Source: Polytrichum commune (Eukaryota > Streptophyta > Polytrichopsida > Polytrichales > Polytrichaceae). From it: a stretch of DNA of 64,000 nt. The stretch lies in contig OX485805.1 of the NCBI GenBank assembly GCA_950295325.1, positions 54,398,758 to 54,462,757 on the forward strand, written 5' to 3'. The notes under the pieces are model-generated. The model was not told the origin of the DNA, searched no databases, and was given only the letters and a program-made list of their open reading frames with translations. Of this stretch, positions 876 to 60,400 are shown in pieces. Position 1 is the stretch's first letter, and each line of letters opens with the position of its first letter. The translations under genes were made by a program, and so were the position numbers.

Positions 876-1563
876 TTGTGGTGTTATTCAAGAATTTCCG
901 GGATAGATTGCGTGTTCAAAAAGTGTAATAATCTTAAGGTATGTATAAGACCCCCTTGTTAGACCCCGAGTACATTTTCGAGAGTGTCGGTAAAGCTCAC
1001 CTCCAATGTTGCAACAGGTTGGACCATATCACATTCAAAGGAGTCAACATTTACAAGTTCTTGGGAGTATTCCTCTTGGTTTGTGTGGGTGTTGGGATGA
1101 ATGAATTGATGTCATAATAAGGTCACATTTGAGAAGGCCAACTAAAAACAATTTATATTTTTTGCATCATTTTTGGGTAGCTAATGTTATAAGTTATAAG
1201 CGAGTCACATTTTTTAGTTCTTAGACATGTGCTATCTTTTCCTAGTTCAACTCATGGGTTATTTTATTATTCAAGTTACTCCTTTAATCATGGAAATCAT
1301 CATTGATTTCATAAATGAGCATCCTAGTATATACATACCTAACCCTCAAATCCTATGACTATGTTCCACCCAATCATATTGAAAATATTTGTGTGAATCA
1401 AATATTCCCAATCAATCACGTGGGAACCATGAGCCTGCGTTTATGGGACGTAGGTGCGGTTTAATTTGGCCTTTTCATGAGTTCAAAGCATTTGCCTTTG
1501 AAAAAGGTAAGTATTCTTCAAGGTCCCTCTCATTCTTATGATATCCACTTCATGACCTTACTT

Positions 1564-1605
1564 TCACACACACGCACACACACACACATGTGTATATATT
1601 TATAA
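1564..1605. repeat. CA/TG microsatellite
   Basis: A run of CA dinucleotides with one CG interruption, passing into TGTATATATT. It is simple-sequence DNA without other signals. Confidence 0.85.
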
Positions 1606-2508
1606 TTCGATTCAAATGTGAAGGAACACTATAATTACACTAGTGGCAACATTGATTTTGTCTTTCTTTCTTACTCAATCTTTAAATGACTAAGTGACTC
1701 CTCGGACTTTGCATTATACATGATTGCAATTTATGGTTGTTTATAATTGCAATTCAAAGCCATTGGTGTCAACTTGTACAATTACAAAAATCTAAATGAC
1801 TTGGTGGCCCTATTAATAAATTGAACCATAATTGTTATGAAGCAACATTGGAAAGAATTGATGCCATTTATGCATAATTAGTGCCAAAGGAGGATATATG
1901 GGAGCACAACACGATGGAATATATACTTGTGGACCACAAAAAGCGCCCCCTCTTCTTTAGGACCCCATTGCCATTAGAAACTTTGTTATTTTAGTTCTAT
2001 AGTTCCATTCAAAATCATTCAATCATCCACTCTATATATGAAAGGAAAAATTACAGTGTCTCGCATACACATCTTTGTTAAAAAATAGTTGTGGACAAAC
2101 ATTTGAAATTGTCTACATAAATATTCCAAGTTGGGACTTACTATGAATTTTTTGGTATCATGTGGTCCCCACTAGTTGCAACTATGATACAATAGTGTCC
2201 CTCTATAAATAACAATATGAGGCCGTCGTCCCACCGTTCCCCACCGTTTGTGCTTAAAAAGTAATTTAAAAAAAAAAAAAAAACTACATGTGAAAGGATC
2301 CTCCCCCCCCCCCCAAAAAAAAACACAAGACAAAAAACAAAATGTGAAAGTAGGGTGGGAGATGGTGGTGGGTCATGAGGCTTATGGAGCACATGCATGG
2401 GGGCATATGGTTGCATGTGTGTATGGGGTTGGGTTGATCCATGATACTAATTCATATGCATGGGGTGCAATGGGCCATGATGGCATGGGCCCAAATGACA
2501 CTAAATAT

Positions 2509-2702
2509 GATATTTTGTGTCACCTACTATTTGGAAATACACAATGCTAATTTTTCTATTGATGTAATTTGTTTACCAAGTAAAGTTGCTAATGTTTTAT
2601 AATGTCCAAACAACCAGTTTGACATTCGCTAATAAAATTTGAGATATACATTCAATAAATACAACATTGCATACTTCCAAATAATAAGTGACACTAAATA
2701 AC
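2509..2702. mobile_element. MITE, family of three, copy 1
   Basis: The ends are inverted repeats: the left begins GATATTTTGTGTCACCTACT and the right, read in reverse complement, begins GTTATTTAGTGTCACTTATT. Both continue into 'ATTTGGAA'. The interior matches copy 3 (47986-48181) in reverse orientation, including the words 'accaagtaaa', 'aatgtccaaacaacc' and 'attgatgtaa'. The length of about 194 bp agrees with the other two copies. It encodes nothing. The target duplication is not clear, so the superfamily is left open. Confidence 0.7.
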
Positions 2703-4377
2703 ACATGTAATGTAATCATCTACACTGTCCAACAAAACTTGTGTCATCATTTGCATACACATGACAAAGTAATGTAAACTTTTGTTGAATAACATTACAA
2801 TGTCATACAAGCCTCAACCATTTAGTAGTTAAAATTATGGATTAGTGTGGCTAATAGTTAGAGTGTTATCCTCCATTTCTCAAATGCCATAGAATTAAAG
2901 TGTAGCATACCAAATAATGCCATATTGCAAGTGACAACAACCATGCCACGTCACATATGGACAAAGTATTTTCATTGAGAGACTTTATCATAAATCTTCT
3001 TTGAGCACAAAATATATCATGCCATGTGGTCTTGGGAAGCTAGATGTCGTATTTTTGAAATAGCACAATGGTTGTTGTGATTGTGAATGGGCAATGTACC
3101 AAAGCTGCATTGATTTGACGATCCACATTAAACCTTTCAACCAATTACTGGTGTCAAGGGACTAGACAATCCTCATCCCCCCAAAAGAGAGAACAGCGAA
3201 CATCAAGATATTTAAAGGGGTTATCAAGCAAAACATTCTGTCCCCATACTTGATACCATATGTGAATGCCTAAAGCTGTTCAAAATCATTTAGTACTAAA
3301 GCTTGCTTACCAAATTGCTAACAAATCATCACAGTGTAATTTAGAGTTACAGAAAGAAGTGACAGATTAACTTCCCCACAAAATGCAGTATTCTTGCGTT
3401 TGAATGTGCCAATCCTAGTGCGTTTGGCACATGACTACCCAAACTTGCCAAAGTGTTGGGAATAGGTGCCAGTACCTTATAAGAACTCCCAAGGGTACCA
3501 TTGCGTCCCTCGATACATATACAATTTTAAAAGAGTCACGGCCACCATTCCCACTTGTAGTTTTGAGTTGTGTATTCCATGGGGTTGCCTCCAGAAATTG
3601 GCATTCTGGCACTCAGACTGCCCAAAACCAAGAAACTTGTGAAATTTCGTGCCACCTTAAGGTGAGTGGACCACCTGTGGCCAAGAGCCAACACACGGTA
3701 AGGTACTGAGCTCTCCCTTCCTAGTCATATGAAGTTGTGCATATGAAGTTTTGCCATTTGTTTAAAAGATGGGAAAGGAGGCACCTTAATATAATACAAT
3801 ACTCTTTTTCCCATTTGGTGGATTTCTCCGTCCTCTAATTTAAGTCCCAGAGCTGACAGTATAAAGCTATGTCAAACTCCCAAATTTAGAGGAATTTGGG
3901 TCTGTTTATAATACTGAAACTCAGGAATCATTGAATACAATAAAGAGGTGTCCCTTGCCCCCAAAGCATGAGGGAGGTAGGTAATGCATGCCCTTGATTG
4001 AGGCAAGAAATTGTTGGGAAGATCCTTGTATCGATAAATTTAAAATGTAGATTGGTGGGCAGTAGTAGCCTGCCCGGTGCATTCAAAGATGGTCACTGGT
4101 CCGTTTGTTGAGGTATATATGCAACTTAAGTTATAGCTGAGAGGGGTCAGATTGAAAGATTCAACAAAGTTGCACATAATTGTTTCATGTTACACATCGC
4201 GTCCGAACTTGGAAGCTGAGTCAAGTTACACGTTGCATCCAATTTTGTCAAGCCTTCTGACCCCACAGAACATAATAGGAGTACGTAAATTAACCCCTAC
4301 CATAGCACAGGTTTATGCATCTCACTCAATGTTGGTTGTGAAAATTTGGTGGACAAGTTTTGAGGTTAAAACGGGGT
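2703..4377. other. Intergenic tract
   Basis: No recognisable gene, RNA or element is seen. Overlapping short frames occur on both strands at about 3415-3709, but neither has a family signature or a codon pattern that favours it over the other. Confidence 0.5.
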
Positions 4378-15856: not shown

Positions 15857-17147
15857 ACGATTCAATGTAAATATACACTCTAGAATCCATAATATGCCTT
15901 TTGCCACCTTAATGCCACTCCTTTTATTTTGACACCCTAGGAAATTAAAGTTTTTAGTTAAATCTCACTTCTTGTTATCACGTTTCCCTCCCACATCTCA
16001 TGGGTTTTGACATCAAATTAAACCACCAAAGAATTTAAACCACACGTTAGCATAGATCATGTTGTCATCATTAAAACTATTTACATTATTGTAATTTTGA
16101 CTTTGTGTTATTTTATAATGTTACATACTACACTAGTTCTCTTTTATCATGCATCCATGTTAACACTACAAAACTCCTTAATATTACATGCACTTTGATT
16201 GCCACAAACATGACATTGTGGAGTTTAGAGTGTATAAGGAATCAATATTTGTAAAAATTATTTTAATTTAATTAAAAATTGATATCACAAAATCTTGAAG
16301 TGGTTTGGTTAGACCCAACTAGAATCAATTGGCCTCAACCTATAGGAAGGTTCTTTTTCTTTTTCTGTTAAAAGACCTTAGAGCACTTTCATCCAAGATT
16401 GATGATTTTAACTGGACTTCAGAAAGATTCTGCCTTATGCATTTAAAAAATAGTCAAGACACCGAACTTATGATGCACCCTTTCTAAACAAAAGAGATGT
16501 TGTGTTTCATGGGCACATTGTAACGGCACTAACAACAACTAACAATTTCCACAACAACTAATTAGGTACACCTGGATACTATTCTACACTTCTCATACAG
16601 ATTTCACAAAGTAAAAATTCTCCGCCACACAAACATTTATGGATGCAATTTGAGGCTACAAATTCCACATCTATATCCAACCAAAAAATAACACACTTGC
16701 AGAGGATACCAACACTACTCAACAATGGCACACTTTTCCACCGTTGTCTTGTTATTTGAATTTGTCCGGAAGTATGGGACTTTCAGTAATGCAAGTTTAG
16801 AATCTAGTACGTAGATTTAGGAAACACAAGTGTTAGCCCTAAACCCCCACCCTTGTGCGTCGTAGTCCGGATGAGAGTTTAAGGCTTTCATACACTTGTC
16901 CAACTTCACCCATCTCTCAAACACAATCCACATGATTCACCATTGGTGATATTGAACACACAATTCTCATTTAAAGAACATTAGGCCACAAGTATTTATA
17001 AATACTCTCCTTCCTCCCTAATTGTTGTCCTTCTTCACCACAACCATCTAACCTACAGCAATAATTTGATTAAATGGCCTAATTGCTTCCTAATGGTTCT
17101 TAAGCAGTCCCAACTTACATGGAGAAAGCCATTGTTGTTCACAACAG
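15857..17147. other. Intergenic tract
   Basis: AT-rich DNA without a recognisable gene or element. Confidence 0.5.
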
Positions 17148-18102
17148 TTGTCAACCAGGCCCATCATTACCAACCTAGTCTACCCTGTTCTACAAATTAA
17201 GCCCTGGTCCTCAACCTCTGGAGTCCTCCCAAACCGGCAGAGAGCTCTTGCCCTTGGTGGAAACCGAGGCCTACCCCCTCTACAGTCTGCCGGAGGCCTC
17301 AGGCCCTTCTGCCACGTCCTTCGTGCTTGCCCTGTGTCCGAGGTCGCTCTGCAGGCCCCTGGCTTGCCCTCAGTTCGCCTCAGCTCCTCCTCGGGCATTG
17401 TGGCGTCACACCCACTCAACCCTCCTTATTGGACATGCATTAGCCAATCACTCAGCTCCCAGCTGAAGCTTGAGGCTGAGATTTTTAGTCTGGTCCTCAG
17501 AATTTCGAAGGCAGCTCTCAGCAATGGAGTTTGGCATTCTCTAAGTCCAGCCCAATCCTCCTCATAGATTCATGATTAATAGATCCGAGGTTTCCGCAAC
17601 TGGTTCAAGCTATATGACCAACATCCCATCGCCACCATTCGGCATTCTGCCCTTCATGTTTCCAATTCCTACATCGCCAGGAATGCCTCACCAACTCCTG
17701 CCTCGTGGTCGACAATGTTGGGCCTTTCATGAACCGCAACATTCAGCACTAGCTGGTCATTTTCGGCAGTTGCCCACCCCCCTTCGGCGAGCCCCTCCAG
17801 ACCAATCCTCTTCTGTTCTCTTCTCACTTTGTGTTGTCCTTCCTACACTCTCAGCAATTTTCTGCCGGCACCCTCCTCCTTCCAAGTCCACTCAGTCTTC
17901 GTTTCCGTCCTCTCCCCCAAGGGCCACCTCCCATCTGCATCTTCCGCCGCATCCAACCTTCATCCCCATAGAGAGTGTGAGAGAGAGAGAGGCTCATGAC
18001 GAACATGGGGCCTGCTTCCGGAGGTCCGGAATTCAGGCAATTACCCTATCCAAGTGCGGAGCCCCCCCCCCTTTGAATGAACACCCTTTAACCCCGGAAT
18101 AA
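17148..18102 (+). other. GC-richer island with two consecutive unassigned open frames
   Basis: Two plus-strand open frames, 17148-17567 (139 codons) and 17572-18102 (176 codons), lie in a stretch clearly richer in C and G than its surroundings. Their translations are rich in Pro, Ser and Leu and show no known domain. Overlapping frames on the other strand and in another phase are also open, as expected from composition alone. This could be a retrotransposon LTR or leader region, or an old promoter-like island. I do not recognise a function and do not claim a gene. Confidence 0.25.
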
Positions 18103-18554
18103 CCAATACTCGCACTAGCCCACTAATCCTAACCAGAATAAACAATAACTCGGCCTACGCCTTAACCCCCCGCTAAATGAAACTTTAAATCGTAACTTCT
18201 TGCAACTCCAAGCCTTCCGTACCCACAATGTAATCCATGATTCAACCTCAAGCTAGAAATCCAATGTAATGCCTAAACTAATCTTAAACTCAATTGCAAT
18301 TCTAAGCGCTAAACTCCACTCTTTTTATATTTTTGCATATTCAAACAAACACCACAGTCTAATCTTTAATAGTTTTAAAGGGTTAAAAACACATGTGTGC
18401 TCACAACAAGTTGGTTTCTAACGATTTATTTTATTTACAATACTTTCTTGATTATATTAAATATGAATTTCCCTTACAAATTATATATATTAATTTTATG
18501 GATTGCAATACCCATTTAATCTAATAATTAAAATAATATAATCATTTTTTCATT
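18103..18554. other. Intergenic tract
   Basis: Nothing recognisable is seen. Composition shifts from C-rich to strongly AT-rich leading into the minisatellite. Confidence 0.5.
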
Positions 18555-18985
18555 TAAACTAAACTCTCAATTCTTCATTCAAACTAGTTTTCTCAATATT
18601 TTATTCAAGAATTATCAATATTTCATTAAAAAAAACTCTCACTTCTTCATTCAACCTAAGCCCTAAACCCTAAACCTAAAACTCTCAATTTTTCATTCAA
18701 ACTAAATTTTCAATTCTTTATTCAAACTAAAATCTCATTTTTTCATTGAAATTAAAATTAAAATTCTTCATCCAATATTATTTTTTATTTTTTCATTTAA
18801 AGTACACTCTCAAATTTTTATTTAAACTAAATTTTTTATTCAATCTAAACTCTCAATCATTTCCTCAAATTAAATTATATAGTCTTCAGTCAAATCAAAC
18901 CCTCAATGTTTCATTCAAAATAAACTCTCAATCCTTCATCCAAACTAAATTCTTCACTCCACTCAAATTTAATTTTCAAATTTTC
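18555..18985. repeat. Degenerate minisatellite, unit about 25 bp
   Basis: The phrase 'ctctcaattcttcattcaaa' with a following 'ctaaa' recurs many times with substitutions and small gaps. Inside it, about 18657-18685 has three plant-telomere-like units (CCCTAAA and variants). The 84-codon frame over 18746-19000 is an artefact of the repeat. Confidence 0.7.
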
Positions 18986-19066
18986 ACTACAACTAACTAG
19001 AACATGGTTGATCCACATACATATTTTGAATAGCAATAACACACGTAAATACCTACATTTTAAATA

Positions 19067-20715
19067 CTAACCAACCAACATCACGACAATGGCACATTTG
19101 ATGCATGAGATGTTGAAGCGCAAGAAGAAGGAGCCCAAGGCAAAGACATGGAGATGGTGTTGCAACAAAGCAAAGCAGACAATCCACCTTCGCGGCAAGG
19201 CGTAAGGACATGCTTCTATTGTTGCAAACTGGGCCACATTACGTGATTTTGCTACAAAGCCAACAACAATAAGAGGAAATATGCCACAAATGCGAAGGAT
19301 GAGGAAAAAATCACAATCGTAACGTAATAAATAACACATTAAAGGAGCCACACAACACATGACTTCGCATAGAACAACATTTGACACCTACGAAATAATT
19401 TCTTCATACAATGTGTTCTTGGATAATGATAGTGTGGCTGAAATCATTTGAATGAAGTCCATTGTCGTTGGAGTTGAAACGAGAGGCAAAACAATTAGAA
19501 TTCGCATCACGGACGTGTTTTACGTGCCCAAGTTGCAAGCCAACTTGCTCTCGGTGAGCAAGTTTTTGTCAAACGGATTGAAGTTGTAATTTCACGTAAA
19601 CGAATGTATTATGGGAGGTGCAAATGGCAATGTGGTTACAATAGCTCGACGTGAAGGGAATTTGTACCAAATGACCTTCACATAGATATGTGGAGCAAAT
19701 GCGGCCAGCTTTATGTGTTCACGTGAGGGAGTCGGTTCGATGGAGCTTTGGCACTGCCGACTTCGACATTTGGATGTAAGGAATGTTCATGCAATACAAA
19801 GTATGGTAAGGGACATAAACCTAGGCAAAACCTCTTGTCCCACCTCTAGATTGGTTTGCAAAGCATGCACGGAGGGGAGGGAGCATGCACGGAGGGGAGG
19901 GAGCATGCAGCAAAGTTGGGCAACGATGCGGAGAAACAAGCAACAAAAACCCTTAGAGATTGTGCATTTGGGTGTTTATGGCCCCATGAGGAACACGTCC
20001 GTGGATTGGGCAAAGTATTCTGTTACTTTTGTTAATGATTTTTTGAAGAGGGTGTGGGTTTACATGAAGAAATCTAAAAGAGAGTAGTTTGAGAGGTTTA
20101 AGGAGTTTCGATCATTTATAAAAACGCAATTGGAGCATGAAATTAAGGCATTTTGGTGGACGAGCGGAGACATCTCAAAAGATTCTGAAGCATTTTTTAT
20201 GGAACATGACATTGAGAACATGCCTCAAGACATTGGACCAGTAGAGTGTATAGGTCAAACCGTTGTCGCAATAACAAAGCGTATGCTTGAGCTCAAAAGC
20301 TTGAAAATTTGTTTTGGACGGAAACGGTGGCAAATGCGGTTTATACACTATACACTCAATGAGGGTCTTGCGCTTTGTTACACCCAAAGAAACGTGGAGC
20401 GGGAGGAAGCCTTGCATTGCACACATACATGTATTTAGAATTGTTGCTTATGCAATGGTTTCGAACGAGAAGAAGGGCAAACTCGATGTGAAAAAATAAA
20501 AATAAAAAATCAAATGCATGTTTCTCGGATAATGCGAAGGTATGAAGATGTACATGCTGATGTGTTTGGAAACAAAAAAAAATTATAAAAATTAGAGATG
20601 TTGTGTTTGAAGATGCGTCCAAGTGGGAGAAATGAAGGCTATACGGTGGTGGTGGTGGATGAATCTTCCAAATCGCCGTTGTTTGATGGCGGTGGACAAT
20701 TCATGAATGACAATG
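19067..20715 (+). pseudogene. Decayed Ty1/copia polyprotein, gag end to integrase
   Basis: Translation in shifting frames gives the copia order: a CCHC zinc knuckle (CFYCCKLGH....C, coordinates 19211-19252, with a stop inside), a protease-to-linker stretch with 'FYVPKLQANLLSVSKF' near 19518-19566, a GAG-pre-integrase domain ('LWHCRLRHLDVRNV', then 'CKAC', 19713-19900), the integrase core start near 19953, and the later integrase phrase 'PKETWSGRKPCIAHIHVF' near 20377-20430. The normally conserved first integrase aspartate phrase is altered. A 20-bp unit is duplicated in tandem at 19862-19901. Several stops and frameshifts make it inactive. The copy continues at 21656 after an inserted LINE. 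LTRs were not identified. Confidence 0.85.
20704..20715. repeat. Target-site duplication, left, of RLE-LINE copy A
   Basis: TGAATGACAATG here is repeated exactly at 21644-21655. The copia reading continues across the pair once the insert is removed. Confidence 0.85.
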
Positions 20716-21643
20716 GTACTACTTACTTGTAAGCAACAACACATACATTCACTTCATGACAAAAGACACAACAAAGCAGTATGGGAAATTATGAAACTAT
20801 TAATCTCATCCGAAAAATCTCGATGCTATACTCTCATGAATGCTGGCACCTTCAATAACACACCCCAAGAAAACACCGTTCCCAATTGGCTACTCCCTTG
20901 CACATGCGGTATACAAAGATGCCATTGTAACTCCAAATTTAGACCTGATATCCTTTGTGTTAGAGGATTACCATACCAAAATGCCCCCCCCCCCACAGAC
21001 ATAGACCCCAACCTCACCATACAATTCATCGAATTCACAACTGTAATGACAGATTCTCACCAGAAACAATCGAAGCAAAAAATAGCAAATACAGACCATT
21101 AATAGACAATATTGTTGCCAGAGGATGGAAAGTTGACCCCCTTATTATAATCACTGCAGGCGCCAGAGCCACTACATACATCCCATCAATGAAGTCACTC
21201 GAAAATAAATTTAAAATACCTATGCTTACCATTAAAAACACCTTTAAAAACATCAATACTATCTCTATAAAATATGCCATGTCTATCCTCCTCCACAAAA
21301 GAAGAATAGAAAATCACCAACCGCTTCCCCAATCATTAGACCCCCCATAGATAAAGCTATAAAGCCCTAACAACTAAGCCACTCCACTCCACTCACTAAC
21401 AATGCACTAGTGAATGGATGACCACACTCATATTAAAAAATACCTAAAAACTAACCATTATGGTCCTTGTTACTGGTGATTGGTGACTATAGTGTCTACT
21501 CTCGAAAGGGAGGAGTAGATCTGTACTTCCATACCTTTGTCATGTGGGCATCGGATTGGGGGTGGATCGAACAGACACTTAATTCACGTCGGTCTCCTCC
21601 GGAGACCGAAGTTTTTTTTCTTTTTTTTCTTCTTTTTTCTTCT
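20716..21643 (+). mobile_element. 5'-truncated LINE with restriction-like endonuclease, copy A
   Basis: The insert carries the C-terminus of a non-LTR retrotransposon of the type that encodes a restriction-like endonuclease (RLE) after the reverse transcriptase. Visible in order are a zinc-finger tail ending 'H...RHNKAVWEI', the phrase 'YTLMNAG', a CTC....CHC cluster, the RLE signature 'RPDILC', then 'IQFIEFT', the lysine-tyrosine phrase 'NSKYRPLI' and a basic tail. In R2-type RLEs the PD...(D/E)...K residues are catalytic. One missing base near 21039 shifts the frame inside the nuclease, so this copy is dead. The 3' end carries two hairpins (21494-21517 and 21591-21609) and then a T/C-rich tail, not poly(A). 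It is inserted in the copia element, flanked by 12-bp duplications. Copy B is at 46362. Confidence 0.8.
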
Positions 21644-24900: not shown

Positions 24901-25399
24901 CAAAAAGAGAGATAACTTTTAATGAAAGTGAGATTAATTGCCCTTACAAAACACCTCACCAGTAACAACTCTAACAAGTTTGCCTCAAATCCAAAATACG
25001 TCCAAGACAGTGAACAATAGCGAGCTAGAGAAAGGGAGTCAAAGGGCAACATTATCTAATTGAAGACACTTGGATATAAAGAGGACGGTGGCTGATGCCA
25101 TGTCAGCAATAATTGGGGTAATGGCGCAAACTTCGAGACTAGACTTGCCCACCCACCCAACCATTTAAAATGTCACCTCCTCCTTTCTTCCAATAATTAG
25201 ACTAGACCATAGAATCATAGCCCTTTGATCTGGTCTCTAACACCATCGGTGCTTTGTTGATGGGATTGGGTTGAATTAAGTTAGGCCACCACTCACTTCA
25301 TTACAATAATTTAAACCCAAAGTAAGAAGTTGCATAAAGTTGCCGTGAGCAAGACTAAACTCTTCTTCAGGGGACATACATAACATTATTCAGATCCAT
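21961..25399. other. AT-rich intergenic tract
   Basis: No gene is supported. The short open frames (for example 22307-22495, 23250-23495, 23610-23924) have no recognisable domain. An isolated tRNA-like B-box word occurs at 24414-24426 without a matching A-box. An A-run followed by AT repeats lies at about 24602-24626. Confidence 0.5.
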
Positions 25400-27259
25400 A
25401 ACAGTGTTTTGTGGGACTGACAATATTCCACAAAAATATTCTCTGGTATTTTGTACATTCAGTCTAATGATGTTTTTTGGAGGTGTGCTATTTATTGTTC
25501 CGGAGTTGGTGTGTGATCTCCCATGTATTGTGCGGAGCGGAATTTGGTGATTTGTGTTATTTAGGCATCCGTATTTTGTTTGGTTTCCTAGTAGTGGTTT
25601 GAGAATTTCCAGTCTAATTGGTTATCCATTACGATGCATAGGGGAATATTTGGGTGTGCTTGATGGTGAGCCTAGTGTGTTCCATTTGTACATGGGATTG
25701 TAGATATCTAATGATACCTATCATGTTTGTGGTTGAAGGGGGTTTGGCTAGCCGGTATGGGATAGTGTGTGCGACATGTATGTGAGGCACTAGGGTTATG
25801 GTACTTTTAAGGGCACCTTTGTTTGCTAGTGTATATGCCAATTCATCGCCTTGAATGCATATGTGTGCTTGGACTCTGTGTATGGTGATTTTGTGTTGGG
25901 ACCAAATGATAAAGTGTACTATTGATGCTATCTGGAGTTTGGCAAGGTGGTTGTGTTGGGTGGATTGGCGTCTATTGTGGTTGTTTATGAGGTCTATATT
26001 GTTGAGGCTATCAATAAATATGTGTATGTTGTGTGGGGTGTTTTGGGTGATGGCTAATGCTAGTCATATAGCATACATATACGTGTGGAGTATGTTTTAA
26101 AATCTCAAGAGTTGTTGTTGTCTTTTAGCTAGATGCATGGTGTTGATTAGGCTATATACTCTTGAGCCTATGATGTTGCCATTGCATTTGCCGTATGGTG
26201 GCATGAATGATCCGTCTATGTATATGCTATGAAGGGGTTGTATTTCAAACGGTTTTGTTTATGGTCTTTTTTGTGGGATGGGCGGGGGTGCCCGTGTGGA
26301 TAGGTGTGTTGAAGGGGTATTTTATGAGGGGGAAGTTTGTCCACTTTTCCAAGGTTTTTACTTTATAGGGCTTTATCATTATGGTTGTAGTGCAGAGGCC
26401 ATTGTGGGGCTTGTGGGTATAGGTGTGTGTTTGGGGGATTGTAGTGATGGTGTGTATGTATGGGTAGTTGTCTAGTGTGAGTTCTCATGGCATCCAATCT
26501 TTGTGATTTAGAACCATAACTATGATATTTTGTGGATTTTTTTCAATAGCCATTCGAGCCCAATGTATTATTGAGTTAAATCTTGGTAATTTGCGGGATT
26601 TGTGTATCATGCTTTGTTCCATTGTGATGATAGCACTTGCCCTTGTGAGCCGAAGATTGTGTGTCGTTGGTGAGGTGGGTCGTTTCTTATGATAGGGACT
26701 ACACATGTAAGTGGTGAGGAATAATATGAGTGTATGAGTTGGAAAGTTCAATGATGAGGTTGATCACTATGGGATGTAGGCTATGGTGTTGGTTTATGGG
26801 TAGGGTATGTTTGGTTTTTTTCTTTCTTGGGAGTATTATATGTATACTACACCAATTCAATTTCAAAGTTTTGGGGAGGTTGGAGGAGCGTGGCAAGTAG
26901 TGGTTTGTTTGTGTTGTTAAAGTGTCTTTTCCAAAGCCAATGGAGCCATTATGAAGTTATGGTTCCTATGTAAGAGCATGTGCGGTAAGAAATTAATGTG
27001 TTTTGCATGTGTATTTGCATTGTTGGTTGTATGGCTTGTATGCCTTTGTCTAGGTTACATTCTTGGATGTTGAGGGTATTCTGGGGTAACCTAATGGGTG
27101 GTCGGAAAAATCATGAGTCTGCATTTGTGGGTCATTGAAGGTGTTTACGTATTCTTGTAATTTAATGTTGTTATGTTTGTGGTAGAGGAATGTGTTCACT
27201 AATGTTCCGATCACAAGTACAATAGAAAAGGCATCTTCTCTAGACACACTGGGAAACAT
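25400..27259 (-). pseudogene. LINE fragment: post-RT linker and RNase H domain
   Basis: On the minus strand the translation contains an RNase H domain in order: 'IYIDGSFMPP' (first Asp) near 26195-26225, a degraded second segment near 26070, 'IHIFIDSLNNI' (third Asp) near 25980-26010, and 'HRVQAHICIQGDELAYTLANKG' with its key His/Asp region near 25810-25880. A C-terminal segment with a 'TKQ.TDA.ITQ..KFR.AQYMG'-like phrase follows toward 25520. Upstream (25900-27259) lies a linker expected between reverse transcriptase and RNase H. Stops and frameshifts occur. I infer that it belongs to the same LINE lineage as the RLE fragments at 20716 and 46362, because that lineage's zinc-finger/RLE part would follow this segment. 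The ends are approximate. Confidence 0.65.
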
Positions 27260-46169: not shown

Positions 46170-46346
46170 TATTAGAATGACAAAGATAATGGAAAATGGT
46201 AAGTCACAAAATTATAACCTCAATATTAATGAGGATTTTGTAATGTTTTTGACCTCAAAGTTAATTAAGTGCTTGATTGATGGTTTCACTTCCGGAATGA
46301 AATCCCAATCAATTGCTTATTTACTAATTGGAAGTGCACATATATA
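46170..46346 (+). repeat. Dispersed repeat (copy of 40260-40770), left part
   Basis: It is similar to the minus strand of 40590-40765. The copy is interrupted after 46361 by the RLE-LINE and resumes at 47086. Confidence 0.7.
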
Positions 46347-46361
46347 TATTGGATTTTAGAC
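46347..46361. repeat. Target-site duplication, left, of RLE-LINE copy B
   Basis: TATTGGATTTTAGAC, repeated exactly at 47086-47100. The uninterrupted paralogue at 40260-40770 carries this site once, with one base different. Confidence 0.9.
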
Positions 46362-47085
46362 GCGGTTCACCTCATCACTCAAACATTACAAGCCAACAAA
46401 CACACCCGATACTACACACTAACAAATGCAGGCAACCTCAACAACATAAACCAACAACAAATTGTCCCAGAATGGCTCATAGAATGCACATGCCCACAAA
46501 CAAAGTGCGAATGTCAAGCAAGACTAAGACCTGACATCCTTTGTATACTAGGAGCCCCAAATCACACCCCAACACCCCTAATACCCACACACGCCCACAC
46601 AATACAATTCATTGAATTCACATACTGTCATGATAGATTCCCCGAACAAACAATCACACAAAAACATGCAAAATACGACCCACTAATTAATACTATACAA
46701 AACAAAGGCTGGAAAACAAACCCCCTTGTAACTATTACAGCCGGAGTAAGAGGAGCTATACATGAACAATCCATTGAAAAACTAGCTGAGCTCAAAATCC
46801 CAAAGTCCAACATCAAAACTCTCATGAAAACCATACATCAAAATGCCATTAAGTACCTAACATATCTTGTATTAAACAAAAGAAAACTTGATAATAAACA
46901 AAATACCGTCGCACCGCCTTACAAAAAAAAAAAAAACGGAACCAAACATTATAAACTAACAGAGCCCACCTCCCAAAAGAGGCATAACTCCTCATGCGAC
47001 AACACGGCCTGCCGTGTTAAACATGTGGATAATGGGCTCACATTCATGCCAGTACATTGTACGGGCGTAATTTTTCTTTTCTTTC
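46362..47085 (+). mobile_element. 5'-truncated LINE with restriction-like endonuclease, copy B
   Basis: A single frame stays open from the start of the insert to beyond its end and encodes the C-terminal part of an RLE-type LINE. It contains 'YTLTNAG', a CTC....CEC cluster, 'RPDILCILG', 'IQFIEFTYCHDRF', then the 'KHAKYDPLI' and 'GW...PLVTITAGVRG' phrases and a Lys-rich tail. The order PD, (D/E) and K-x-x-K-Y is that of the R2-type nuclease. It aligns throughout with copy A (20716-21643) but without its frameshift. The 3' end has the hairpins ACACGGC/GCCGTGT (47002-47017) and GTAC/GTAC (47052-47062), then a T/C-rich tail. Reverse transcriptase is missing because of 5' truncation. 15-bp duplications flank it. 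Confidence 0.85.
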
Positions 47086-47100
47086 TATTGGATTTTAGAC
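47086..47100. repeat. Target-site duplication, right, of RLE-LINE copy B
   Basis: An exact repeat of 46347-46361. Confidence 0.9.
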
Positions 47101-47300
47101 CTTGAAGGTGAAGTGCATTCAATATGGGATTTGTAATCAAGCGGCCTTCAAGAATGCAAGAGCAATGTTTTTTTTCGAAATTAGGGGGGATGGCCAACAA
47201 TTTGTGAGGGGGTATTTAATGTCCGCCCATATTAATTTCTTTAAAATAACCGGACTAGTAATGATAGATTGGCAACGCATGATGGACCCACTTGCTTCTA
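47101..47300 (+). repeat. Dispersed repeat (copy of 40260-40770), right part
   Basis: Continues the host repeat after the LINE. 'cttgaaggtgaagtgcattcaatatgggatttgt' and 'ggccttcaagaatgcaa' match the minus strand of about 40500-40580. Confidence 0.7.
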
Positions 47301-48181: not shown

Positions 48182-48702
48182 AAAAACGGTGTATCACTTT
48201 GGTTGGTTTTTACATTTCTACCAGAGGGAGGTTACCAACCAACACTCGTTACCGCTCAAAACGTGGGGAATTTGGATAGCAAGGGGGTCAAGGGTGAAGG
48301 TGGTGACTTGATAACATAGTATTTAGGACAGGTACCAGGTGAGCTTGGGTGCCTGGGGTGGCAACATGCGTTGAATATTGAGCAATTTATTCTTGTTTAA
48401 TATGCTGATTCTTTTCACACATCTTATCCTCAATGAATTTGGTCTTATTCTAAAGAACTCAAGAAGATGAATCTAGTTGTATTCTGTTTGACATAGTTCA
48501 TTTCCGTATTTTTTGTGGGCAATGGATAATAAGAGAAGATAGAAATCCCCATGGATCATATGCTGATGGTTTTCTTGCCTCACAAGTTTTATTTTGTCAA
48601 TATGCATGTATTGACAGTGCAAACATTACTCTCAATGTTTTTTTTAAAAATTTTGAAACTTAAAATTTCCTAGTTGAGTTTCCTAGTTGAGTCTAATGGT
48701 GA

Positions 48703-49440: not shown

Positions 49441-50326
49441 ATGAGGCATGTGAGGCGTCTACTGACAGATACATTTTCATCTGAATTCGCGTATCGAATC
49501 CAGCTAATCCAGGTCCAGTAAACGCACAATCTTATGACTTTGCCCACTACATGACAACGTAGTTTCTATACTAAGTTACCACCAGTGTAGATTAATTGCT
49601 GGAATGGGCAATTGGCTTCTCAGGTTGACGTATAAATATTCATAGTCGATGGCGGTGTTGTGAGAAGCAAGTGTTTCATAACTTGTTTACATTTGGTCTT
49701 GGCTCGAGGGTTGAGGTCCGAGACTCCATTCTATACAAGGTGTCAAGATCGACATGACATGTGAAAATAGAAAAGTGACAGGAGCTTGTCAGGCCAGCAG
49801 TGGCTCAAGTGTGTGCTCACACAGCGATAAATTTGACCACTTGAAATGGTTTGGGATGGTGATCTAGTATTGGCATTCTATACGAAGTTCTCATTCCTTG
49901 GAATGGTGTAGGAGTTCTTTCTCTACAAGTTTGCACCCACTGCTTCTAGCCTTCTTGAGTTGATTACAATACTATCCTTTTCCAACCGATAGTCCAGCAG
50001 CTCATGTGGCTCTTTATTACATTGGAGGATCATACATAACCTGGACCAAAGTCTGGCAGTGGAAACTGCTCAAAGTTACATGTTAAGAAATTCTCAGATG
50101 AATATTCAATCACAATATAGATTGCATTGATAACATTTCCGTGGCCACATCCTGGTATGACTATGTATTATGAGCAATATGCCATCTTCTAGATTAAATC
50201 CTCCAGCCAGATTATTTTGCCTGCTGTTCTGGTACTTCATTTCAAATTCACAGCATAATAGTGGCCAGTAAGCGGCCGGGGCATTCAATAATCTGTGGTA
50301 GTTCAAATTTCAAGGGACGATTACAC

Positions 50327-52556
50327 ATGGAGTTGCATCCCGTAGTTGAACAGGTGACTAACCGGATCGTCAAGCTCAGCCAGCTATCGCGCTTGGCCTA
50401 CCTTGCTCACCTCGATGCAGCACACTCGCAGGGTGTGCAGCGGGGTGCACTCTTATGCACCAATCTCGCACATGCCTTTGCGGCATCCCCCCAGAAGTAA
50501 GTAAATCTAGACATGTTCATAAGGTTGAAAATAGTGAAATTTTATTTGTGCACTTCTATAGGTGGACCCTATGATAGAAATGACAGCAACGAATCTTACA
50601 GGTGAATTGCATTTCGTGTTGTAGCACGTGATAGTGGCATGCCCACTCTGTTATTTGTGGAAAATACACATCTAAAGGGAACATTCGACAATGTTGCTTC
50701 TCAAAATATGTATAATTAGAGTCTTCATGACATTCTTCTATTTTCTTCCTCCGAAAGCTGTGCTTTGCAATATATATGTTTCAACTGTGCAAAAAACTAT
50801 CAGATGCATCATTAATATATTGAACAAGTCTTTTGTCCATATTTACTTGAATCCTAGTGTCAAGCTCAAATTGCGCAAGCAGGAGAGGGCGTTGGTGGCA
50901 ATTATTTCGTCCTACAATGATATACTGTCGGCACACCAACCTTTTGAAAACTTCCCGAATGTGATCAAGCAGGCAATTCATGACGTTGGTGCGGTGGCCC
51001 AGTTTGCGGGCGGCGTGCCCGCCATGTGCGATGGCGTCACCCAGGGACAGCCAGGCATGGAGCTGTCTCTTTTCTCACGCGACACCATTGCGATGAGCAC
51101 GGCGATCGCACTCTCGCACAATGTGTTCGACGCGGGTCTGTACCTGGGCGTTTGCGACAAGATCGTTCCTGGACTCTTGATCGGTGCACTGCACTTTGGC
51201 CACCTCCCAGCCGTGTTTGTGCCCGCGGGTCCGATGCCGAGTGGTTTGTCAAACAAGAAAAAGGCACATGTGCGGCAACTTTATGCCCAGGGCAAGGCGA
51301 CGTGGGAGGAGCTGCTCGAATGTGAAGCACGATCATACCATGCCGCCGGCACTTGCACTTTCTATGGAACAGCCAACAGCAATCAAATGTTGATGGAGAT
51401 TATGGGCTTGCACTTGCCAGGTGCTGCCTTCATCACTCTGGGAACGCCGCTCCGTGACGCACTCACTGTGGCCGCCGCTCAACGCGCGGTTGCGATTTCT
51501 TCGCACGGTGAGGGAGGTGGGAGCTGTAACTCCATGCCAATCGGACGTTTGGTGGATGAGAAAAGCATTGTGAACGCCATTGTTGGCCTGCTTGCCACCG
51601 GCGGTTCCACAAATCACACACTGCACCTTGTGGCAATTGCTCGTGCAGCTGGGATCGTGATTGATTGGGATGACTTCAACGAGCTCTCCAGCGTGGTGCC
51701 GTTGCTGGCCCGCATCTACCCAAATGGTGACGCTGACGTGAACCACTTTCATGCCGCAGGTGGCCCGGGATTTGTAATCCGTGAGCTACTCGACGCAGGC
51801 CTAGCCCACGAGGACGTGAACACCATCCTTGGTTGCGGTCTACGTGCCCACTGCCGGAAGCCTACTCTCGACATGCACGGCAAGGTCGTTTGGCATGAGG
51901 TGCCAAGGCACAGCGGCGACGAAAATGTGGTCCGCCCTGCATCTAAACCGTTTAGCAAGGATGGTGGCCTAATTGTCGTGTCCGGTAACCTCGGCCGTGC
52001 GATCATGAAGGTTTCCGCGATCTGCAAGGAACAACAATATGTGGTCGAGGCGCCTGCACTGACATTTGACTCACAAGAGGCCTTTGTGCACGCCTACAAG
52101 GCCGGCCAGCTCAACCGCGATTTCGTTGCCATCCTCCGCCTCCAGGGCCCTCGCGCAAACGGTATGCCAGAACTGCATGCGCTCACACCTGCGTTGTCGA
52201 ACCTGCAGGACGCCGGCCATCGCGTGGCATTGGTGACCGATGGCCGTATGTCCGGCGCCTCAGGGAAGGTGCCCACCGCCATCCATGTCTCGCCGGAGAC
52301 CCTGGCAGGCGGCCCTCTAGGCCTCGTGCGGGATGGCGACATCATCCGCTTGGATGCGCACACCTGCACGCTGGAGGCTTTGGTGCCGCATGCGCTTTGG
52401 GCCCAACGTTCGCGGACAGCGACGGCGGACTTGGCAACCAGTCCCATTGGCATGGGGCGCGAGCTATTCTCCATGTTCCGCCACTGCATCAGTGACGCCG
52501 AAACGGGTGCGGTCACCTTCCCACTCCCATCCGCAACCCCGCATAAGGGCCACTAG
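50327..52556 (+). CDS. edd: 6-phosphogluconate dehydratase (bacterial-type, one intron)
   Basis: The enzyme dehydrates 6-phosphogluconate to KDPG in the Entner-Doudoroff pathway (EC 4.2.1.12). Exons 50327-50496 and 50858-52556 join in frame to 622 residues, against 603 in E. coli. The N-terminus '[14 protein letters not shown]' and the exon 1 end '[11 protein letters not shown]' fit the family. Exon 2 has '[12 protein letters not shown]', '[20 protein letters not shown]', 'CDKIVPG' (Cys about 156) and '[14 protein letters not shown]' (Cys about 223). The two cysteines match the [4Fe-4S] ligands Cys154 and Cys221 of the E. coli enzyme. The C-terminus has '[19 protein letters not shown]' and 'GMGRELFS'. 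A short Gly/Ser insertion precedes '[10 protein letters not shown]'. An in-frame ATG at 50261 would add 22 residues, and an upstream targeting exon is possible. GC-rich coding in AT-rich flanks plus an intron suggests a bacterial gene settled in a plant genome. An AATAAA lies at 52887. IlvD is excluded by these Edd-specific phrases. Confidence 0.93.
50497..50857 (+). other. Spliceosomal intron of edd
   Basis: The donor GTAAGT at 50497 follows the second base of a codon, and the acceptor 'AATCCTAG' ends at 50857. Splicing creates an Asn codon and joins 'SPQ' to 'VKLKLRKQ', the position where bacterial Edd proteins run on without a break. The 361-bp intron is AT-rich, unlike both exons. The exon 2 frame happens to remain open backwards into it, which makes the unspliced frame look like a 621-residue protein with an unrelated hydrophobic N-terminus. 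Confidence 0.88.
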
Positions 52557-57474: not shown

Positions 57475-60400
57475 TTACACATCTCCATCTTCCGCTTCAT
57501 ATCCATTCTCAGCGTCATTCACCGCAGCTGCAATACGTGCCAAGTTGTCTTTGGCAAAATCTATATGTTTTTGGGGGATGGTCATTGTTTCTGTTTTGGA
57601 ACCTTTGCGCGGCTTCCAAGCACAAAGTATAGTATCCGTGTTTATCCAAACCGGTGTGTACGCTGAGTCCACTGTCCACTTAAAATTCTTTTTGGTGTCC
57701 CAACCTAAATAAGTGCGTAGCACGTTTTGGTCTTTAGTGCTTGGACGACAATATTCCACCTCAATTTGACGAAAGTTGGGGCTAGTTCGAACAAAATTGG
57801 GTGAAGACAATGCTTTCACCAACCAAATTGGCTTGGGATGCTCCTCATCCCCTGCTCGTACGAGGACCAAATAACCTTCATGGCAATCAACACCTACACG
57901 AAACGATGGTGCCGGTCGATCTCGGGCAGGGCCAACGTAATGCTCGTCCATTGCGAACTCTTCACGAACGTCTCCATTGCTAAAAAACATGGTGTCGGAC
58001 TCGACAACCGTTAAACGGCTTTGTGGCCAAAATCCTTGTGTTAAAGTTGTACGGGTGTCGCCACTAAGTGTCATTAGGGCCGAGCGAATGCGATCCCAAT
58101 ACGCAATCAAAGGTTCATGAGTATCTCTAACACGTCTAGTGATGTCCTCCTCACACAACTCTTTCCAATATTCAATGAATCCGGATATGCCTTTGATGAT
58201 TTCCGGCCCATTCCTCATGGGGTCGGGTTTGCAAGGCTTTGGATCCCCATCCGGGAGCAAACATTTCCCATCATTGTCTTGACGCCATACGAGTATACCA
58301 TCATCCGGGCCCCAATTAGGAGATGTGCACAAAAGCTTAAATTGTATGGCCGGGAGACCATCATCCCTTATATAGAATCGGAATTGTTGTGCTTTGGTAT
58401 GTCCCACCAAACGGTCCCCTCCCTTCAACATGTATGGCTTGATGAAGACCTTGAAATCTGGTACTTCCTCAATCATGTGCGGAATTACCGGCATATGGTC
58501 CAAATCCATATACGATTTCATAAGAAGTGGTATGGTTGGAAAATCTTCTTCATGCAACTTCATGCTCCACCGTCCGAAAGACGCATCAATGTCATCGTGT
58601 GTGTGTCCCACCATCAAGAAAGACACAAACACCTCCTTGAAGATTCCTTTCGCCACAAGCAAGGACCAAAAACAAAATACATATCGACATTTGTTGTCCT
58701 TCGCACAATTATCAAGTTGAACGTGGAGAGTTGGAGGCAAAGGTTTCGCACAAAGAGGTTCTCCGGGTGGCTCCGGCAATGACGACATACAAACCTCCTT
58801 CCCCTCAAGCAGTGCTTCGTAAAGGGGTGTCGTTCCACAACCATCAAACAATGCACGTGATGAATGTACCGGTGGCTTCTCCAGATCGCGCAAGAGTTTT
58901 GCAAATGATCCCACCGTGTGGTTAGCATCGCCAGGGTAAAAATCCAGACCATAATGGGCATACTTTACGTCTCCATGTCCGTGGGCAATCATCCCTGGGA
59001 AAGAAACAAACGATGCATGAATGAAAACAACAACAACCCTAAACGGATGTATGAAGTTGAAACCTAACGTAAACACACCTAGTAAAATTGGATAATTTGA
59101 ACACATATTTGTGATTTCATACAAACCTGTGACAGCTACTGGCAACTTGAAGAGTCCATCCGTGGCCTTTATTTTCCATGCATAACAAGGGCATGCGGTC
59201 TTTGCATGGTCCATTTTATCATGGATGATTGTTAGAACCTCTGTAGGCCTCATTATGGATAGAGCACGGTTCTTATAGTAATCTTGACGGTGAGCCTCTT
59301 GGTTGTTGACATGTTCAATATATTTTCTTTGGTGTCTGGAGTGTGATTCGGTGCCTATGGGGTGGGCGTCCCGAAGACCTTTGTATTTTTCACACGTCGT
59401 ACACCTAGCGAACTTGTCCCCAGGTCTCTTCAAAATGTATTCAGCAAACTGTTGGTTTTTAATCACACTCAACTTGGACAAAGAAATGGGCCCACATCCC
59501 GCTATGCGACCCACTTCGTTAATGTCCGTTAAAATGTTCTTCCATTTTGTTCCCATGGGCAAAACCATTTGTACAATTTTCTCCCCTGACGACAATGTTC
59601 TCGTTTTGTGGGGCATTGCATCGGCCAATGGGACAATGATGGTGGAGAGTGTCGCAGAGGCTTGGAGTGTAGCCTCCCTGGGTTTCTTTGTACCCAAATT
59701 TCCATGAAATCGAGAGCGCCGACCCAACGATGAATACTTTTGAAACCTATAAAAGTCAGACTTTGAAACGGCGTGGATGGTATACCACGCGGTACAACAC
59801 ACTTCCACATTCTCAAGTGTGACCACCTTATGCCCATGGGTGTCAATGTGCACATTTATGTGGACCTCGAGTTTCTTTGCCGATCTCATCCGGAAATCCG
59901 CAAGCCACATCTCTTAACGTAGGGACTTAATTTTCTCCCGCGAGAAAAATTGGCAACATTTCCGATCGCAACAGTCCTTGGCGGACACAAGACGGATAGA
60001 TTCGTCTCCCAATATGCGATCCCGTCTACGTTCTTTATCTCCTCGAGGCACACGGTTAGAATCATATTTGCGCAGGCCTTTGCGAGGACGTATGTTGGCC
60101 AACAAAGCTAATTGCGTTTGCTTATGGCGCCGCTCATGGTCCAACAAGCTCACTCCGTCATAGAGAACCCGACAAAGAGGCCATCGACGCAAGGAGAATC
60201 TCCATGTCACCGGGACCTCAAGCGGAAGCAATGAATTCAAGATGCACACACCAACATCGCTAGGACCAAGGGGGTTGGCATCCACACAATCACGGGGATC
60301 GGAGTTTCTACATATGCCATCTGCCACAGGGACACCAAGGTCGTTGTGTAGGACGACATCAAGGCCAACCCATTGCTCCCTCCCGAAACCGGCACACAAA

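Follow-up and report, generated by a model that had tools for sequence, protein, structure and literature searches.

A bacterial-type 6-phosphogluconate dehydratase gene interrupted by a predicted intron of transposon origin in the genome of the moss Polytrichum commune

Can a land plant own a genuine 6-phosphogluconate dehydratase (Edd) of the Entner-Doudoroff pathway? The Entner-Doudoroff activity of plants had been attributed to dihydroxy-acid dehydratase (DHAD/IlvD). According to the excerpts of Evans et al. (2024; PMC10847513) used here, EDD genes are absent from eukaryotes and plants therefore lack the pathway. The plant-like exceptions are treated in these excerpts as artefacts that lack introns and transit peptides; the introduction also mentions a transcript from Phaeodactylum called EDD, but does not accept it as shown. 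The window analyzed here, a stretch of 64,000 nucleotides from Polytrichum commune, bears on this dispute, as the initial annotation had proposed: it contains an intron-bearing edd, and a KDPG aldolase gene is found in the same genome. We give a probability of about 0.8 to the reading that this is a genuine and selected Edd gene, transferred from a Massilia-like bacterium and carrying an intron made from a transposon. Splicing, expression, activity, localization, and pathway flux of the moss Edd are what we infer on this reading, from sequence data.

The spliced gene encodes 622 residues, from an ATG at 50327 to a stop codon ending at 52556 (Table 1). The donor after 50496 is AA/GTAAGT, and the acceptor is CCTAG/TG, with the intron ending at 50857. 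Among the ten donor-acceptor combinations listed around both junctions, three keep the open frame, and 50497-50857 is the only one of these that has a GT donor and loses no residue; the other two need a GC donor and cost seven or eight residues of the conserved region. Indeed, in the alignment with 17 bacteria (nine rows displayed) no residue is gained or lost at the junction by the chosen splice. The start codon is at the same position as in Massilia Edd, and no in-frame ATG is found 5′ of it within the open frame 50198-50500. The 1,866 coding bases contain neither a stop nor a frameshift, and the indels against Oxalobacteraceae, +5, +1, and +1 residues and a shorter C terminus, keep the frame. 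All coordinates that had been proposed for a 361-bp intron with a canonical donor splitting edd, as well as the length of the product, thus hold.

Table 1. Positions of edd and related features; positions are those of the window unless a contig is named.
Feature	Position	Strand	Description
Partial second copy of the intron's MITE-like family	48555..48635	+	75% over 81 bp
Edd exon 1	50327..50496	+	Start codon to donor; residues 1-56 and first two bases of codon 57
Intron	50497..50857	+	361 bp, GTAAGT...CCTAG; by alignment a copy of a MITE-like transposon family of about 374 bp
Edd exon 2, including stop codon	50858..52556	+	Cys114, Cys156, Cys223, Lys192, Arg196
KDPG aldolase gene	C1:22876860-22880208		Nine exons, 339 residues; hand-built exon model

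The identification of the product as Edd, made initially from the letters of the DNA, is borne out by family models. The protein scores 926 bits on the NCBIfam equivalog model edd (TIGR01196), above its cut-off of 708.25, its E-values on the family models go down to 7.6e-279, so that a chance match is excluded, and its top relative of solved structure is a 6-phosphogluconate dehydratase (2gp4, 756 bits). It is identical to Escherichia coli Edd (NC_000913) at 353 of 601 positions (58.7%). Plant DHAD belongs to the same superfamily (PF00920), and the host has its own copy on contig C2, but moss Edd reaches 322 bits on the equivalog model for ilvD, well short of the cut-off of 618, while the host DHAD fragment, closest to chloroplastic plant DHAD, scores 218 bits on TIGR01196. 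A second Edd copy was sought in the genome with PF00920 and rejected: the two candidates, both of which match, are Edd and this DHAD. The host DHAD (C2; locus positions 1063-3072, reverse strand) is one 670-codon open frame without introns; DHAD is usually multi-exon in flowering plants.

The catalytic residues are kept. C112, C154, and C221 of E. coli Edd, which we take from family knowledge to be the Fe-S site ligands, align with C114, C156, and C223 of moss Edd. The initial annotation was therefore right on the conservation of the cluster cysteines but not on their number, which it had given as two rather than three. Furthermore, E. coli H47, K190, and R194 correspond to H49, K192, and R196, and these are substrate contacts in the docking given in the excerpts of Evans et al. 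(2024; PMC10847513). The domain 1 consensus in the same excerpts, LAHGFAAX4(D/E)KX3, is found in part, with A in place of G (LAHAFAA, in exon 1) and V in place of D/E; Chromobacterium Edd has the same two states. The basic motif of domain 2 with RQLYAxxK is present in essentials. The enzyme (EC 4.2.1.12) would dehydrate 6-phosphogluconate to KDPG, using an Fe-S cluster held by the three cysteines.

The protein is bacterial in origin. In a first search, the best 80 of at least 591 relatives were taken, and the first 13 of these are Oxalobacteraceae with 74-78% identity in the best segment; the other 67 have 60-68%. A quick tree of 81 rows groups moss Edd with the 13 Oxalobacteraceae (support 100), and a careful tree of 35 rows places it inside a group of 24 Oxalobacteraceae rows (support 100/100). 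The end branch of moss Edd is 0.34 in the latter tree, among four flagged as long, and its exact neighbours are weakly supported (90/72). The donor family indicated by these trees is clearly Oxalobacteraceae, while the placement in a genus is weak; a Massilia-like donor is probable as part of the main reading. The Edd proteins of Massilia and its relatives share about 77-79% identity with moss Edd over 613-618 aligned residues and have the same start and the same catalytic residues. In contrast to them, the moss gene is nuclear and intron-bearing, has three small in-frame insertions and a shorter C terminus, and has no aldolase gene beside it. Co-transfer of further bacterial genes was considered and rejected: the open reading frames in the flanks match none of those in the fetched bacterial loci.

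The intron has its own origin. When it was searched against the host genome, the best 40 of 366 candidates were the intron itself and 39 others with 74-78% identity, most of which match it end to end; with a 4-kb query around edd, for which the best 40 of 463 candidates were taken, the other matches fall in the intron part only. All of the 39 other copies were fetched and aligned. The consensus of the family is 374 bp, and its terminal inverted repeats match at 21 of 25 bp. Exact 4-bp target duplications flank the aligned ends in 11 of the 39 copies, with 0-2 in off-diagonal registers, and 5-bp duplications in none. Allowing one mismatch raises the 4-bp count to 20 of 39, but the off-diagonal registers then reach 9, and for this reason the exact count is the one to rely on. 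The family thus has the features of a MITE, namely terminal inverted repeats and a target site duplication of fixed length (4 bp), and the edd intron is, by alignment, a copy of this MITE-like transposon dispersed in the host genome. In the Edd copy, about 10 bp of the 5′ terminal inverted repeat are missing, as is the final base at the 3′ end, and no target duplication is seen at its insertion; its ends have thus been altered. None of the 39 other copies has GT at the donor columns, so that among the aligned copies GTAAGT occurs there in the Edd copy only, while AG is found at the acceptor columns in 28 of 39. Therefore, the element brought the acceptor with it, and the donor was formed at the junction.

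A possible sequence of events is as follows. After the bacterial transfer, a non-autonomous DNA transposon of about 374 bp would have inserted in codon 57; erosion of the 5′ junction would have given the GTAAGT donor, and the 3′ terminal repeat the CCTAG acceptor. The insertion would now be removed as an intron, the protein keeping its bacterial length. The order of events envisaged from the start, bacterial acquisition and then gain of an intron, is borne out by both the 100/100 placement in Oxalobacteraceae and the host element in the gene; a MITE-like transposon as the source of the intron had not been suspected.

Since the origin of the protein is plainly bacterial and bacteria of this kind live on wild plants, the gene could instead belong to a Massilia-like plant associate and have been fused to plant sequence during assembly, as contamination or mis-assembly; earlier plant EDD sequences were dismissed in this way in the excerpts of Evans et al. 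(2024; PMC10847513). We regard this as extremely unlikely. The coding region is split by a host transposon with at least 39 other aligned copies across the seven largest contigs. In a search of the whole family, matches at E ≤ 1e-150 were obtained from 337 of 392 Oxalobacteraceae genomes, and the top identity to moss Edd among the matches listed is 81%; near-identity to one bacterial genus, the result named at the outset as pointing to contamination, was not found among them. The assembly comprises 407.8 Mb in 64 contigs, with 406.07 Mb in C1 to C7, seven being a chromosome number that suits Polytrichaceae, and edd (C3:54449084-54451313) lies 54.45 Mb into a contig of 59.16 Mb, a position which argues against contamination, with host-like sequence on both sides. 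GC content is 0.576 and 0.588 in the exons, 0.341 in the intron, and 0.386 and 0.368 in the 2-kb flanks. GC3 of moss Edd is 0.659, that of the 13 Oxalobacteraceae 0.81-0.92, and that of four host genes 0.465-0.75; it has moved from the bacterial towards the host values, and codon usage is partly ameliorated.

A different alternative accepts the gene as a resident of the genome but takes it for a pseudogene, broken by the transposon and decaying since then. The transposon does sit within the coding region, and the gene is read here from DNA alone. The intron can serve as a clock for this question if its divergence is taken to postdate the insertion. Of its 358 sites compared, 54 depart from the family consensus (15%; K2P 0.17), a value that is, if anything, an underestimate, since the consensus was made from the copies closest to the intron; the 39 other copies differ from the consensus by a median of 0.145 (range 0.095-0.232). 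At a neutral rate of about 9e-9 per site and year for mosses, the insertion may, very roughly, be near 18 million years old. Neutral simulation of the coding sequence at d = 0.17 gives 6.35 stops on average and no stop-free case in 300, with 5 of 300 stop-free at d = 0.095 and 36 of 300 at d = 0.05, whereas the actual coding sequence is intact. NG86 gives dN of 0.147-0.215 and dS of 1.46-1.95, the latter saturated, and for this reason constraint was measured at sites invariant in bacteria. Among nucleotides invariant in 17 bacteria, those altered in moss Edd number 18 of 324 at first, 5 of 404 at second, and 19 of 56 at third codon positions. For first and second positions together, this makes 23 changes in 728, where 110 would be expected if the gene had diverged as fast as the intron (P 2e-26) and 64 if it had diverged as little as the least diverged copy (P 9e-10). 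Purifying selection on Edd after the insertion is strong in exon 2, and decay as a pseudogene is very unlikely. Selection persisting after the insertion would in turn imply splicing, since it is hard to understand otherwise. Exon 1 behaves differently. Two of its 51 sites invariant in the 17 bacteria are changed (P 0.012 with the intron's rate and 0.16 with the lower one), and, at sites invariant in the 13 Oxalobacteraceae, 10 of 86 first and second positions are changed against 13.0 expected (P 0.23; 0.87 at the lower rate). Its identity to Oxalobacteraceae is 0.692 and that of exon 2 is 0.773, while both parts are equally conserved among Oxalobacteraceae (0.83 and 0.84). Because exon 1 alone is not significantly constrained, a point which would also suit a pseudogene, the argument from selection after insertion rests on exon 2. 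It may be, then, that exon 1 is disused and that translation starts inside the former transposon or in an upstream exon, which would give Edd another N terminus and possibly a targeting peptide; in the upstream direction, the frame of exon 2 continues without a stop into the transposon, as far as 50676, and contains ATGs. This is unlikely, though less so than decay of the whole gene: splicing brings the protein back into exact alignment with its bacterial counterparts, the donor is a perfect GTAAGT at columns where the other copies have no GT, and exon 1 is free of stops and retains LAHAFAA with His49, the docked substrate contact, as well as 49 of the 51 sites above.

As the initial annotation had recommended, a KDPG aldolase gene was looked for in the same genome, and one of plant type is present. 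A default six-frame PF01081 search of the genome (E ≤ 0.001) returned no KDPG aldolase. At a relaxed threshold, a single fragment of 17.5 bits came up, interrupted by a stop, and its surroundings read as a multi-exon gene (Table 1), by which the apparent absence is overturned; such a miss of a nine-exon gene at the default threshold is a caution for absence claims on intron-rich genes. On PF01081, the product of the joined exons reaches 138.9 bits (cut-off 27.8); it aligns with solved KDPG aldolases, and its Lys254 and Glu166 correspond to K133 and E45 of the E. coli enzyme, so that the catalytic lysine is kept. In the exon model, exon 2 has several possible acceptors, of which one was chosen for its spacing relative to bacterial Eda and a plant EDA sequence, and exon 6 has a weak acceptor. 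Both Entner-Doudoroff steps are, as predicted genes, encoded in the moss genome. Whether the two enzymes meet is another matter. A transit peptide is not visible on Edd, as there is no ATG before 50327 in frame, and Edd is therefore probably cytosolic, unless the gene has a further exon upstream. The aldolase has about 130 residues ahead of its domain, and plant KDPG aldolase is chloroplastic in soybean, according to the excerpts of Evans et al. (2024; PMC10847513). An Edd without a visible transit peptide and a plastidial aldolase may thus not meet. A working Entner-Doudoroff pathway in the moss is plausible, at odds slightly below even.

Taken as a predicted gene, moss edd contradicts the absence of EDD from eukaryotes claimed in the excerpts of Evans et al. 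(2024; PMC10847513). It resembles the plant, fungal, and animal EDD sequences dismissed there as bacterial artefacts in being of bacterial type and lacking a visible transit peptide, but differs from them in its host-derived intron, its partly ameliorated codons, and its chromosome-scale contig. By its intron it therefore escapes one of the two criteria given in these excerpts, while it falls under the other, the missing transit peptide. Searches of open-access papers listed none on a plant EDD acquired by transfer. An EDD with an intron from a host transposon answers directly the objection that missing introns betray contamination, and the presence of edd and an aldolase gene in one genome makes a long dispute about plants testable in a single organism. 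The gene is also an example, dated by its own intron, of a bacterial gene becoming a plant gene. Tentatively, and with a little less than an even chance of being right, we suggest that P. commune is a land plant with a working Entner-Doudoroff shunt of two sources, a Massilia-like dehydratase and a plastid-inherited aldolase, and would be the first eukaryote with a genuine EDD, in which a transposon is caught becoming a spliceosomal intron.

The intron is to be compared with introners (Gozashti et al., 2022; PMC9860276). As described in the excerpts of that survey used here, these are also DNA-transposon-like elements with terminal inverted repeats and 4-bp target site duplications, their boundaries as introns are the element's own, and they carry the 3′ splice site. 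Unlike them, the moss family has one proven intronic copy and is an ordinary MITE. A dedicated introner family as its general nature was rejected on the counts of GT (0/39) and AG (28/39) at the splice columns of the other copies. In the same excerpts no introners are reported from land plants (PMC9860276), and the edd intron is a case of intron gain from a DNA transposon in a group where this broad survey found none.

Transfer of metabolic genes from microbes to mosses has a precedent in nicotianamine synthase (NAS): in the excerpts of the report used here (PMC12454661), NAS genes are microbial transfers found in some moss lineages including Polytrichales, some of them with later introns. edd differs from these in gene, enzyme, and donors. 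The present genome has one NAS match, in a 395-codon open frame (C4:11912553-11913218). For an LHCII protein of this genome, the top single-stretch chains among the 60 listed of 648 matches to solved structures are 8htu_U and 7xqp_a, entries of the moss Physcomitrium patens (467 and 465 bits, the following two having 440 and 435); one multi-stretch chain, 9vfj_2, reaches 530 bits.

The surroundings of edd are AT-rich and repeat-filled, as they had appeared at first sight. The partial MITE-like copy about 1.7 kb upstream (Table 1) is repeat DNA of host type. Mobile-element DNA around edd is represented by an 812-codon open frame with DUF7869 (57478-59913, reverse strand) and by a Copia-like GAG-pre-integrase fragment at 19686-20084 (forward strand), which scores just below the cut-off (25.1 against 28.4 bits). 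The open frames 46281-47102 and 20707-21347 share similar translated stretches (the ITAGVRG/ITAGARA region); the former has no Pfam match, and the pair resembles a mobile protein present in repeated copies. Strong GC skews of opposite sign mark two stretches separated by about 8 kb, -0.31 and -0.53 in 17001-19000 and +0.22 and +0.46 in 25001-27000, unlike the remainder of the window. Elsewhere in the genome, 14 PF00504 light-harvesting matches of equal score lie within about 95 kb (C5:1751760-1846160), forming a tight array of near-identical members.
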